In this document: in pieces, positions 24,046 through 27,728 of the stretch | Numbering within the stretch: the stretch's first letter is position 1 | How the letters are laid out: each line of letters opens with the position of its first letter | DNA from: Oscillatoriales cyanobacterium CG2_30_44_21 | GTDB lineage: Bacteria; Cyanobacteriota; Cyanobacteriia; Pseudanabaenales; Pseudanabaenaceae | Length of the DNA stretch: 33,127 nucleotides | Direction of reading: 5' to 3' | NCBI GenBank assembly: GCA_001873375.1 | Contig: MNZA01000048.1 | Span: forward strand, 1-33,127 | The notes under the pieces: model-generated | Database searches by the model: none | Told to the model about the DNA's origin: nothing | What the model saw: only the letters and a program-made list of their open reading frames with translations | Translations under genes and position numbers: made by a program

Positions 24046-24102
24046 CAATTAAAAAAAGGCTGTTGGCGGCGCATCGCGCCACCAACAGCCTTTTTTTAAT
24101 TG
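24046..24102. terminator. 27-bp stem-loop after dnaN
   Basis: Arms 24046-24072 and 24076-24102 pair with one mismatch, centre GC-ATC-GC. The arm overlaps the dnaN stop (24096). A- and T-runs border the stem. Confidence 0.8.
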
Positions 24103-25250
24103 CGAATTTGCACAGGCATTAATAAATAGGTCATCTTTGTTGCCCCAATCGGTACAAGTACCGCAGGGCTGGTGGGATTATTTAACTGAATTTGAATTTC
24201 ATTGCTAGGTAAAGCTTTCAGCCCATCCAGTAAATATTTGACATTAAAAGCAATTTCCACATCTTCCCCAGATACTTGAGCGGGCAAAGATTCGCGCCCA
24301 GTCGCCACATCAGGTGACTCTACTGATAGGGAAACTTCCTGCCCTGTGGAGTCAATGGTGATCTTGACAATGTTATTTTTTTGGTCAGCTAAAACTGCAA
24401 TTCTCTCCAGTGCCAAGAGAAACAACTTCCGTTCTAACGTAACCTGTCGCTCAAAACGATTGGGAATAAGCTGACGATAATTAGGATAAGTGCCATCTAG
24501 TAAACGCGAAATCAAGATTTGATTAGCACTTTGGAAAATCATGTTAGCGCGGTCAAACTTAACGGCGATCGCGCCCTCAGTCTGTTGGTTGAGCATCCGC
24601 TCCAACTCGCGCAATGCTCGGGCAGGGATGGTCACTTCCAAATTGGTAGTCACGGTGTCGCCCGTAACGGGTGGCTCATCAGCATCCAGAAAGCCTGTCT
24701 GCACAACTGACAAGCGGTGTCCATCGGTCGCCGCAAACTCAAGATGATCGCTATCGGCAGTCAAATGCACACCTGTCAAAATCCGCTTAGTCTCATCAGC
24801 GGAAGTGGCGAACAATGTCGAAGCTAACCCGCTCAACATCGCTTCGACAGGAAGGTAAGTTATTTGCCCATCATCGCCGATTTGCGGTAATTCAGGAAAC
24901 TCTTCCACGGGTAGCCCATGCATTTGATAGCGCCCAGAACCGCAGATGATGGAAACCATCGTGTTGTCCTTGTCCACGCTGAGGGTAATGTCTTCATCAG
25001 GCAGACGGGAAACAATGTCATTGAGAAGCTTGGCTGGCAGTGTAATTGATCCTGCTTCGACTACTTGCGACGCAAAGGAAACCTGAATACCAAGATTGAG
25101 GTCAAAAGCGGTCATACCAAGAGTTTGACTGGTAGCATCTGCGTCTATGCGGATATTTGCCAAGATCGGATGTGTGGGGCGGGAGGCAACAGCACGACCG
25201 ACAAGAGCGAGGTTAGCAGCAAGTTGGTTTTGAGGGCAGACTAGTCGCAT
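24096..25250 (-). CDS. dnaN: DNA polymerase III beta subunit (sliding clamp)
   Basis: A 384-residue clamp protein that forms a ring around DNA and tethers the replicase. The three clamp domains are visible in order: MRLVCPQNQLAANLALVGRAV with HPILANIRI; the middle with LFATSADETKRILTGVHL and ATDGHRLSVV; and the C-terminal VRIE-like end PTSPAVLVPIG followed by YLLMPVQIRN, which carries the conserved LMP pocket. Length and motifs are complete. It lies directly beside the predicted origin at 25251-26071, a common arrangement in cyanobacteria and other bacteria. Confidence 0.97.
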   Translation of the reverse strand: MRLVCPQNQLAANLALVGRAVASRPTHPILANIRIDADATSQTLGMTAFDLNLGIQVSFASQVVEAGSITLPAKLLNDIVSRLPDEDITLSVDKDNTMVSIICGSGRYQMHGLPVEEFPELPQIGDDGQITYLPVEAMLSGLASTLFATSADETKRILTGVHLTADSDHLEFAATDGHRLSVVQTGFLDADEPPVTGDTVTTNLEVTIPARALRELERMLNQQTEGAIAVKFDRANMIFQSANQILISRLLDGTYPNYRQLIPNRFERQVTLERKLFLLALERIAVLADQKNNIVKITIDSTGQEVSLSVESPDVATGRESLPAQVSGEDVEIAFNVKYLLDGLKALPSNEIQIQLNNPTSPAVLVPIGATKMTYLLMPVQIRN

Positions 25251-25399: not shown

Positions 25400-25632
25400 A
25401 TCAGAATTTGAAAATAAATGAATTTTGGAATTGCAAATTAAAGAACTTTTTCGAGGAAGTTTTTTTGGATGCTTTAGCAATTTTAATTTTTCATTTGTGG
25501 GAGCCAATCATATCATCATTTGAATTTTTTGAACGTTTTGAAATTAATTTTTTTTAACCATTTCCAAAATATTCTTTCGTTATTTTTTCGTCCGATCTAA
25601 TAATTACGGATTTAAAGAATAAAAATATTAAA
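25400..25632. other. A/T-rich candidate DNA unwinding element
   Basis: Runs of A and T dominate, e.g. AAATTAATTTTTTTTAACC near 25541-25560 and AAAGAATAAAAATATTAAAT next to the trinucleotide repeat. It borders the leftmost DnaA boxes, as expected for the first strand-opening site. Confidence 0.6.
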
Positions 25633-25666
25633 TAGTAGTAGTAGGGGCTGTGGAAAATGTGGATAA
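25633..25666 (-). promoter_or_regulatory. DnaA boxes, GC spacer and DnaA-trio repeat
   Basis: On the minus strand this reads TTATCCACA (25666-25658), TTTTCCACA (25657-25649), a short GC-rich spacer, then TACTACTACTA (the plus strand has TAG four times in a row at 25633-25644), then A/T-rich DNA. The order box-GC-trio-A/T is that of the basal unwinding system described in Bacillus subtilis. Confidence 0.75.
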
Positions 25667-25710
25667 CTACAACAAATCTTTGTGCAATCATACTTCTAGC
25701 GATTTCTGCC

Positions 25711-25731
25711 TGTGGATAACTCTGTGGATAA
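25711..25731 (-). promoter_or_regulatory. Two DnaA boxes
   Basis: TGTGGATAA (TTATCCACA on the minus strand) at 25711-25719 and 25723-25731. The second, with flanking bases, makes a 13-bp inverted repeat with the first right-hand box (25719-25731 against 25741-25753). Confidence 0.85.
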
Positions 25732-25740
25732 AGTGGCTAG

Positions 25741-25854
25741 TTATCCACAGAGTATAAATACCTATAAAAAGTTATCCACATTTTCCCCAATGTTATCCCC
25801 AGATATTTAATAGTTTTCCACAAAAAAATAGGGCTTTTCCACAGGTTTTCCACA
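25741..25854 (+). promoter_or_regulatory. Regularly spaced DnaA box array
   Basis: Boxes begin at 25741 (TTATCCACA), 25772 (TTATCCACA), 25793 (TTATCCCCA, one base off), 25814, 25835 and 25846 (TTTTCCACA). TTTTCCCCA at 25781 is a further near-match. The starts 25772, 25793, 25814 and 25835 are exactly 21 bases apart, two helical turns, and the last is 11 bases on. Confidence 0.85.
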
Positions 25855-25984
25855 GGCAGAAATCAAATATTGGCATTCGATGACTGTTTTGATTATAAAA
25901 AATACTTGTAATAGTTGCTAATATTTTATGTTTTAAGCTTGTGATCTCGAATTAATATTTCTTAAAATATATAAAATTAAAGTA

Positions 25985-26047
25985 AACAAATAAAGTAATT
26001 TTTAATATCGCGGCTTTGCCGCGATATTAAAAATTACTTTATTTGTT
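25985..26047. terminator. 30-bp perfect stem-loop between oriC and holB
   Basis: Arms 25985-26014 and 26018-26047 pair perfectly, centre GC-TTT-GC, with an A/T-rich outer part and a GCGGC core. It follows the holB stop and could shield the origin from holB transcription. Confidence 0.8.
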
Positions 26048-26071: not shown

Positions 26072-27022
26072 TTAGAGCTTCCCTGCGATCTGTAAAAGAG
26101 TTACTTCCCAAACTAATCTTGGTTGTACATATCTTCCAATTAGCTCTCTCGCTTTATCCAGATATTGCAAAATTGATAGGGATTGATGATGTTCCCAAAA
26201 GTAGTTTTGCAGATAGTCAATCATCCATAGCTGCAAATCTACATCTAGTTCCTTATTGATTTGCTTGGCGATCGCTAGCGCACTCTTGGCATCAATGGGA
26301 ATTTGCTGCACGGAGTTGAGTAATTCTGATGGAATACTTTTAAATCTCTCAAAGGACTCGATCGCTTGTCCTGCGGAGCCTTGAGCTAGGGTGACAACGG
26401 TGGGCGGGATATCACTATATCCTTCGCGTGATAATACTGCTTGCGTTTGACTTTGATTTAGGCGGGTAAAGGGAATGCGCTGGCAGCGTGAGACTAGGGT
26501 GGGCAGGATTGAGCCAGCATCAGGCACAATTAGCACAATCGTGGCGTAGAGTGGTTCTTCTAGGGTTTTGAGCAAGCTATTGGCTGCCGACTCTGCCATC
26601 GACTGCGCTTCTTCGATAATCACAACGGAGCGATCGCACTCCAATGGAGAACGGCTGACAAATTCCCCGATCTCGCGCACTTGCTCGATCCTGATCTGCG
26701 GCATGGCTCGGCGTTTTAAGCCTGCGGCTTCGGCTTCTTTTGCCGTCAGCATTTTGCCCTTGTCCAAGTAGGTCGGCTCGACCCAAAGCAGGTCAGGATG
26801 GTTGCGATCGCCCAGTCTTTGGGTGGACTTGCGATCACCCAGTAAAACTTCGGCAAATGCTAAAGCGGTTTTGCTGCGCCCCACGCCACTCGTACCTGCA
26901 AATAGATAGGCGGGGGCGATGCGATTTTTTTGGATGGCGGCTTTTAGTAAGGCGATCGCTTGAACCTGCCCAATGATGCGGTCAAAGGGAGCTAAGGAAC
27001 AGGGAATCTCATGGCTAATCAT
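26072..27022 (-). CDS. holB: DNA polymerase III delta-prime subunit
   Basis: A 316-residue AAA+ clamp-loader subunit. FDRIIGQVQAIALLKAAI opens the fold. The P-loop reads GTSGVGRS (43-50), with Arg where active ATPases have Lys, consistent with delta-prime not hydrolysing ATP. Later motifs are VVIIEEAQSMAESAANSLLKTLEEP and the sensor-type LVSRCQRIPF. The four-cysteine zinc module of many bacterial forms is missing. I start at ATG 27022 (MISHEIPCSL). It overlaps the stop of the upstream gene by eight bases (ATGATTAG), which implies translational coupling. The frame is open further upstream but inside that gene. Confidence 0.9.
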   Translation of the reverse strand: MISHEIPCSLAPFDRIIGQVQAIALLKAAIQKNRIAPAYLFAGTSGVGRSKTALAFAEVLLGDRKSTQRLGDRNHPDLLWVEPTYLDKGKMLTAKEAEAAGLKRRAMPQIRIEQVREIGEFVSRSPLECDRSVVIIEEAQSMAESAANSLLKTLEEPLYATIVLIVPDAGSILPTLVSRCQRIPFTRLNQSQTQAVLSREGYSDIPPTVVTLAQGSAGQAIESFERFKSIPSELLNSVQQIPIDAKSALAIAKQINKELDVDLQLWMIDYLQNYFWEHHQSLSILQYLDKARELIGRYVQPRLVWEVTLLQIAGKL

Positions 27023-27728
27023 TCCAATTTTGCTGTTGCGATCGCCAAGAAGCGCTAGAGCGTAAGCTTGTCCGACTGGCACTAGATTCTGTATCAACTA
27101 GGCGGCGACGCAGCCACCAACGGATGGCTTCATCCACCGATGCTGAAGGGTCATCCGATATTTCCGAAAGCTCCGCAAATATTTCTGGAGAAACTTCCAC
27201 ATAGTGCTTACGTGGTAAAGCGGGAGGTTGATTTTGTTCTTCCAAATCAGAAGAAAGATTAAGGGTTGATTCTAAAGGTTCCATTGCGGTGCTAGATAGA
27301 TTTTCTGTGTGAGTATCTGAACTAGAGTTAATTGAATTGGGAAAGTCGGGCTTCTCTGCTTCGATAAATTCCGCCTTTTCAGGGCTTTCATGACTACGCG
27401 TTGTTGTTCCATTCTCGGCAATGTGGAACAGATGAAGCCTCAAGGCGGTGAAGGTTACGGCAAGATTGATGGCTGCTATTACTAGTAAATTTACTGATTG
27501 ACCTAGCCAGATGATGAGGGTCGCGGTTGTACTAATGATTAGCCCTGTGACTAGAAGATTGTAGCCAATGATTTTTTTGGAATGGGATGACTTAAATGGT
27601 TTGGTCGTAAATTCACTGCGATTGCGGGAAGGACGTGACTTGGAGCTAGTGAGAAAAACTAGGGAAATGATGATGTGGATTAGCCCTAGAGCCAAGAAAA
27701 ATCCGTTTAGTAGCCAAAAATCTTGCAT
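27015..27728 (-). CDS. Membrane protein with C-terminal ribbon-helix-helix-like segment
   Basis: A 237-residue protein of unknown function. Hydrophobic segments lie at about residues 6-26, 54-73 and 76-95 (FWLLNGFFLALGLIHIIISL, IIGYNLLVTGLIIS region, NLLVIAAINLAVTFTAL). An acidic, Ser-rich linker follows to residue 170. The C-terminal VEVSPEIFAELSEISDDP and VDEAIRWWLRRR (177-210) closely match residues 27-61 of the upstream 84-residue protein, and both proteins end in WND. The segment looks like the helical core of a VapB/Arc-type DNA-binding antitoxin. It is translationally coupled to holB. The shared tail suggests gene duplication, or a common partner. Confidence 0.75.
   Translation of the reverse strand: MQDFWLLNGFFLALGLIHIIISLVFLTSSKSRPSRNRSEFTTKPFKSSHSKKIIGYNLLVTGLIISTTATLIIWLGQSVNLLVIAAINLAVTFTALRLHLFHIAENGTTTRSHESPEKAEFIEAEKPDFPNSINSSSDTHTENLSSTAMEPLESTLNLSSDLEEQNQPPALPRKHYVEVSPEIFAELSEISDDPSASVDEAIRWWLRRRLVDTESSASRTSLRSSASWRSQQQNWND

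Follow-up and report, generated by a model that had tools for sequence, protein, structure and literature searches.

A putative basal unwinding system with four regular DnaA-trios in the dnaN-holB gap of a Pseudanabaena chromosome, and its occurrence among cyanobacteria

In Bacillus subtilis, the basal unwinding system (BUS) of oriC consists of two co-oriented DnaA boxes (boxes 6/7), a short GC spacer, and 3'-GAT-5' DnaA-trios that run away from the boxes and lead into A/T-rich DNA (PMC6669920, PMC8287927, PMC10721633). The published criteria for a BUS are one or more boxes that stay within mismatch limits and are often paired in tandem with the same orientation; a GC-rich spacer of 0 to 16 bp, with the trios typically ca. 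4 bp from the last box and 13 bp from the better one; and at least three trios of the form 3'-NAN-5', the best being 3'-GAT-5', on the correct strand and in the correct direction. This type of element is already known, and its occurrence in cyanobacteria was demonstrated earlier in vitro with the DnaA of Synechococcus elongatus, which unwinds its own box and trio scaffold; scrambling of the trios abolished unwinding, cognate boxes and trios were both needed, and the protein also worked with ADP (PMC8287927). Origins that adjoin dnaN and carry TTTTCCACA boxes are described for cyanobacteria in DoriC (PMC6323995) and in a Cyanothece 51142 study (PMC4674748); the available part of the former covers box clusters and DnaA-trios in general, not the module described below. 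DnaA is reported to be dispensable in Nostoc 7120, Synechocystis 6803, and Synechococcus 7002 (PMC7198777). A literature search found no report of DnaA dependency or of an oriC in Pseudanabaena. The present analysis adds a lineage map, in which the module and DnaA are jointly absent, and the finding that picocyanobacteria vary the captured base between A and C only.

The window, i.e. the whole stretch of 33,127 nucleotides that was analysed, carries a dnaN whose closest named relative belongs to a Pseudanabaena metagenome-assembled genome (98% identity). The gap between dnaN and holB and its borders contain the following features:

24096-25250, minus strand: dnaN, sliding clamp, the usual neighbour of cyanobacterial oriC (TIGR00663, 342 bits)
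25533-25632: A/T-rich stretch from the trios towards dnaN, 80% A/T over 100 bp; presumed duplex unwinding element, as suggested by the BUS order
25633-25644, plus strand: four DnaA-trios, TAG four times, i.e. 3'-GAT-5' away from the boxes; found in 0 of 30,000 shuffles; conserved
25645-25648, minus strand: 4-bp GC spacer GCCC; in the phylum mostly G[G/C]C[C/T]
25649-25657, minus strand: second DnaA box, TTTTCCACA, cyanobacterial type, directly abutting the first; invariant in the 17-sequence genus alignment
25658-25666, minus strand: upstream DnaA box of the tandem pair, TTATCCACA, E. coli-type consensus; conserved in the genus
25711-25854: remaining box cluster in inverted arrangement, with boxes at 25711-25719 and 25723-25731 (minus) and at 25741-25749, 25772-25780, 25814-25822, 25835-25843, and 25846-25854 (plus)
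26072-27097, minus strand: holB, DNA polymerase III delta' subunit, the other border of the gap (NF005638)

The plus strand of 25633-25666 reads TAGTAGTAGTAG GGGC TGTGGAAAA TGTGGATAA. Read on the minus strand, towards the dnaN-facing edge of the gap, this becomes TTATCCACA TTTTCCACA GCCC CTA CTA CTA CTA TTTAATATTTTT, with CTACTACTACTA, that is (CTA)4, at 25633-25644. The initial annotation had described two directly adjacent minus-strand DnaA boxes with TAG four times in a row beside them on the plus strand; both were borne out, and both boxes are perfect. Its letters, coordinates, and order of GC spacer, trinucleotide, and A/T-rich DNA also stood, while the register of the trios was refined to a 4-bp GCCC followed by four CTA. 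The spacer distances are 4 bp from the near box and 13 bp from TTATCCACA, and the A/T content of 25533-25632 is 80% as against 55% in the window. In the whole 3.5-Mb genome, the pattern TTWTCCACA-N5-TACTACTACTA occurs without mismatch at 25633-25666 only. When the gap was shuffled with its dinucleotides preserved, 0 of 30,000 shuffles contained (CTA)4, 0 the two boxes in tandem, and 0 a box followed within 16 bp by (CTA)3.

The dnaN-holB gap holds nine perfect TTWTCCACA boxes, where dinucleotide shuffles contain 0.03 on average, and the cluster lies next to dnaN, an indicator gene whose vicinity to a box cluster is a criterion for oriC. In the quasi-palindromic cluster at 25649-25864, one pairing joins 25649-25668 to 25770-25789 and another joins 25701-25720 to 25845-25864 (20 nt, 95%); despite this, the trio run is present on the dnaN side only. 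A second unwinding side facing holB, beside the plus-strand boxes at 25835-25854, was considered and rejected since no trio is found there. The dnaA flanks of the same genome were likewise rejected as an alternative origin, with 0 perfect boxes there. Single-strand folding of the A/T-rich side showed no excess over shuffles (z 0.42). An inverted repeat of 30 bp (AACAAATAAAGTAATTTTTAATATCGCGGC / GCCGCGATATTAAAAATTACTTTATTTGTT), perfect and with a loop of 3 nt, occupies 25985-26047, where the box cluster lies on one side and the end of holB on the other. It is not conserved in the genus alignment, is matched partially and more weakly at four other places in the genome, and is a candidate holB terminator or small palindromic element.

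The initial annotation had named conservation of the trinucleotide and the box pair in the dnaN-holB gap of relatives as its test. Both proved to be conserved: the module was found in 26 of 26 genus members scanned and, with unchanged spacing and polarity, in much of the phylum, and the box pair, the 4-bp GC spacer, and the trinucleotide run are kept in all 16 aligned named loci of the Pseudanabaena clade. In the alignment of these 16 relatives and the window (17 sequences), the most conserved 20-mers of the gap are those spanning box, box, spacer, and trios (mean identity 0.98-1.0 versus a gap mean of 0.63). Two further box pairs reach ca. 0.96. The A/T-rich flanks are for the most part variable, as is the hairpin close to holB.

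As compared to the B. subtilis BUS, the order of parts, the spacer, the register, and the polarity agree, as the initial annotation had proposed. The locus has two perfect tandem boxes, a GCCC spacer, four perfect 3'-GAT-5' trios, and 80% A/T beyond them; it is conserved in relatives, and the cognate DnaA has the capture residues. Unlike in B. subtilis, the boxes abut with no gap, the second box is of the cyanobacterial TTTTCCACA type, the element adjoins dnaN and not dnaA, and the four CTA are unusually regular, whereas the B. subtilis trios are described as degenerate. The putative Pseudanabaena BUS shares its phylum and its place next to dnaN with the origin of S. elongatus (PMC7198777), whose BUS was predicted and reconstituted in vitro (PMC8287927). 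In gene neighbour and box type it resembles the dnaN-adjacent cyanobacterial origins, and differs from them in mixing TTATCCACA and TTTTCCACA boxes within one gap. Based on these comparisons, we consider 25633-25666 to be very probably (about 87%) the BUS of the Pseudanabaena chromosomal origin. Directly observed are the parts with their order, spacing, and polarity, the deep conservation, the shared absence of module and DnaA, the intact capture residues, and the A or C middle base in relatives; that replication would start here is deduced from anatomy and phylogeny.

The genome encodes one DnaA, on another contig, and dnaA is unlinked to the module. In the B. subtilis structure, Asn187, Ile190, Ile193, Arg202, and Glu228 hold or flank the trio bases, Lys222 and Glu223 are located at the fork, and Arg264 is the arginine finger (PMC10721633). 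The five base-holding residues are identical in the Pseudanabaena DnaA, as are Lys222, Glu223, and Arg264, and the same eight are identical in 26 other cyanobacterial DnaAs. Conservation, the published criteria, and these residues support the equivalence to the B. subtilis BUS that had been suggested, functional equivalence being presumed. By analogy with B. subtilis and S. elongatus, two DnaA molecules would dock on the abutting double-stranded boxes via domain IV, and the GCCC spacer would place the box-proximal DnaA at a distance from which its AAA+ domain reaches the fork. The oligomer would then grow 3' to 5' towards dnaN on the plus strand, to which DnaA is expected to bind, with one protomer per 3'-GAT-5' trio, each capturing the first two trio bases (G and A). 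The A/T-rich stretch at 25533-25632 beyond the trios would be kept open for helicase loading. Loss of base-capture residues in lineages lacking the module was considered and rejected, as none were lost; since the residues are kept there too, they indicate that DnaA can capture trios and say nothing on whether it does.

To define the distribution of the module, 96 regions upstream of dnaN from 37 families were sampled. The strict rule required a box with at most two mismatches, a spacer of exactly 4 bp, CTA as the first trio, and at least three C[TG][AG] trios; six misplaced matches of an initial tandem-box tally (L032, L074, L147, L151, L152, and L185) were set aside in favour of this rule. 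On the dnaN strand, it was satisfied by 43 of 86 DnaA-encoding regions, representing 19 of 35 families, with 0 matches on the opposite strand and 0 in 192 reversed control sequences. Four further families (f9, f12, f20, and f21) have the module with TTA as trio 2 or with a 5-bp spacer. The module lies upstream of dnaN in about two-thirds of the DnaA-encoding families sampled and is missing there in about one-third, f31 and f32 among them. The number of CTA units ranges from 2 to 5 among relatives. Genome-wide, TTWTCCACA-N2-8-TACTACTA was found in 83 of 390 genomes of the class as compared to 19 genomes with a reversed control pattern, and nearly all real matches have the same five letters, GNNNC, before TAC, which equals a 4-bp spacer before CTA. 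In genomes lacking DnaA, the module was found in 0 of 10 and perfect boxes at dnaN in 0 of 10, although these genomes are interrelated (five families) and do not represent ten independent losses.

Several lineages depart from this arrangement. In f32, the family containing Anabaena, 4-7 perfect boxes occur upstream of dnaN (L133, L134, L135) or beside dnaA (L293, L294) with no recognisable trio run; DnaA boxes may thus outlive the unwinding element. Lineages that have DnaA and no module are consistent with the reported dispensability of DnaA, the equation of family to strain being uncertain. In and near f16 (L074, L151, L152), tandem boxes are accompanied by GTACAATAGTAC instead of CTA trios, possibly a divergent or lost trio array. 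In f19, the module lies just past dnaA (G018:C1:1868-1889), and in genus g35, a part of f26 (G140 at least; G140:C1:2464166-2464187), it is distant from dnaA as well as from dnaN. These displaced modules are probably relocated origins, and that of f26 recalls a remark on Synechococcus lividus PCC 6715 in the DoriC article (PMC6323995).

A rival reading takes the box cluster with its trinucleotide to serve mainly in DnaA titration or in DnaA-dependent regulation of the dnaN promoter. Replication would then begin in another place or at multiple sites, as it does in Synechocystis or Nostoc. The position of the module upstream of dnaN on its coding strand is compatible with this, as are the replication of some cyanobacteria without DnaA (PMC7198777), the f32 box clusters by dnaA or dnaN that lack trios, and the flat GC skew, 20-kb samples of which showed no significant side-to-side difference at the module in the two single-contig genus genomes sampled, a result that speaks neither for nor against initiation at this site. 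The dispensability of DnaA in several cyanobacteria, the one-third of DnaA-encoding families without the module, and the unlinked dnaA were also counted against the BUS reading. A promoter needs neither an exact 4-bp spacer with a trinucleotide run in register nor a captured base confined to A or C, and the modules of f19 and of part of f26 show no tie to the dnaN promoter. A mainly regulatory or titrating site is improbable.

Even less probable is that the gap is an origin opened by general A/T-rich melting together with box-bound DnaA, the trinucleotide having no role in single-strand binding. Both flanks of the box cluster are A/T-rich (72% and 78%), the array is inverted with many boxes, and flexible origin architectures are deemed possible (PMC10721633), all of which such melting would accommodate. 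Against it, the trio run and the boxes are equally well conserved, whereas the A/T-rich DNA past the trios varies, the trios are found on one side only at fixed spacing, and S. elongatus DnaA stopped unwinding when the trios were scrambled (PMC8287927). A chance repeat beside the box cluster, as slippage might produce and as the varying CTA number could hint, is scarcely credible given the shuffles and the reversed controls set against the 43 of 86 DnaA-encoding regions, and is refuted by the genus-wide invariance of the module.

The trios of GC-rich picocyanobacteria show natural variation of just the kind that the recent structure of DnaA on its origin permits. In B. subtilis, C is the only tolerated substitution of the middle A, with which it shares an amino group, and G and T impair function (PMC10721633). 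Low-GC members of f2 (upstream GC 0.18-0.31) have mostly pure CTA, and GC-rich members have CTA CGA CGA CGG, CTA CTA CGG CTG, and similar arrays. At L187, L197, L255, L279, L289, and other f2 loci, CGA or CGG (3'-GCT-5' or 3'-GCC-5') replaces CTA, together with TTTTCCCCA-like boxes. When 300 genomes were searched with trios 2 and 3 left unconstrained at their middle position, the module was found in 69, and the 138 middle bases were 73 T, 65 G, 0 C, and 0 A, while nearby coding-strand composition was 30% C and 28% G, C being no rarer than G. On the bound strand, a coding-strand change of T to G reads as A to C. A dnaN tree with 25 of these genomes, from which five f2 dnaN sequences that did not pass the extraction rule were left out, requires at least five T/G changes in trio 2 and one or more in trio 3; by independent events, the evidence is thus moderate and not overwhelming. 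Outside this picocyanobacterial set, a few T to A changes occur inside arrays (L251, L254, L062, L173), and T to C is confined to trio 4 at the array end (L021, L065). These observations moderately suggest that the bound-strand middle base in picocyanobacteria is A or C, in agreement with the amine rule of B. subtilis. It seems rather likely that GC-rich picocyanobacteria evolved a captured cytosine, with 3'-GCT-5' or 3'-GCC-5' for 3'-GAT-5', and avoided guanine. Since the published search demands 3'-NAN-5', such origins would be missed or mis-registered. No report of natural cytosine trios was found in a literature search that covered few subscription journals, and priority is not claimed.

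If this is true, nature has performed the base-capture model's own A/C/G swap experiment, and the restriction to A or C would be comparative support for the mechanism derived from the B. subtilis structure; origin-finding motifs should then widen the middle base to A or C and not keep A alone. The module appears to be kept almost letter for letter over much of the cyanobacteria. It would pinpoint where origins open in this phylum, whose origins GC skew often does not locate and some of whose lineages replicate without DnaA, and its presence or absence would make the use of DnaA and oriC predictable and testable lineage by lineage.
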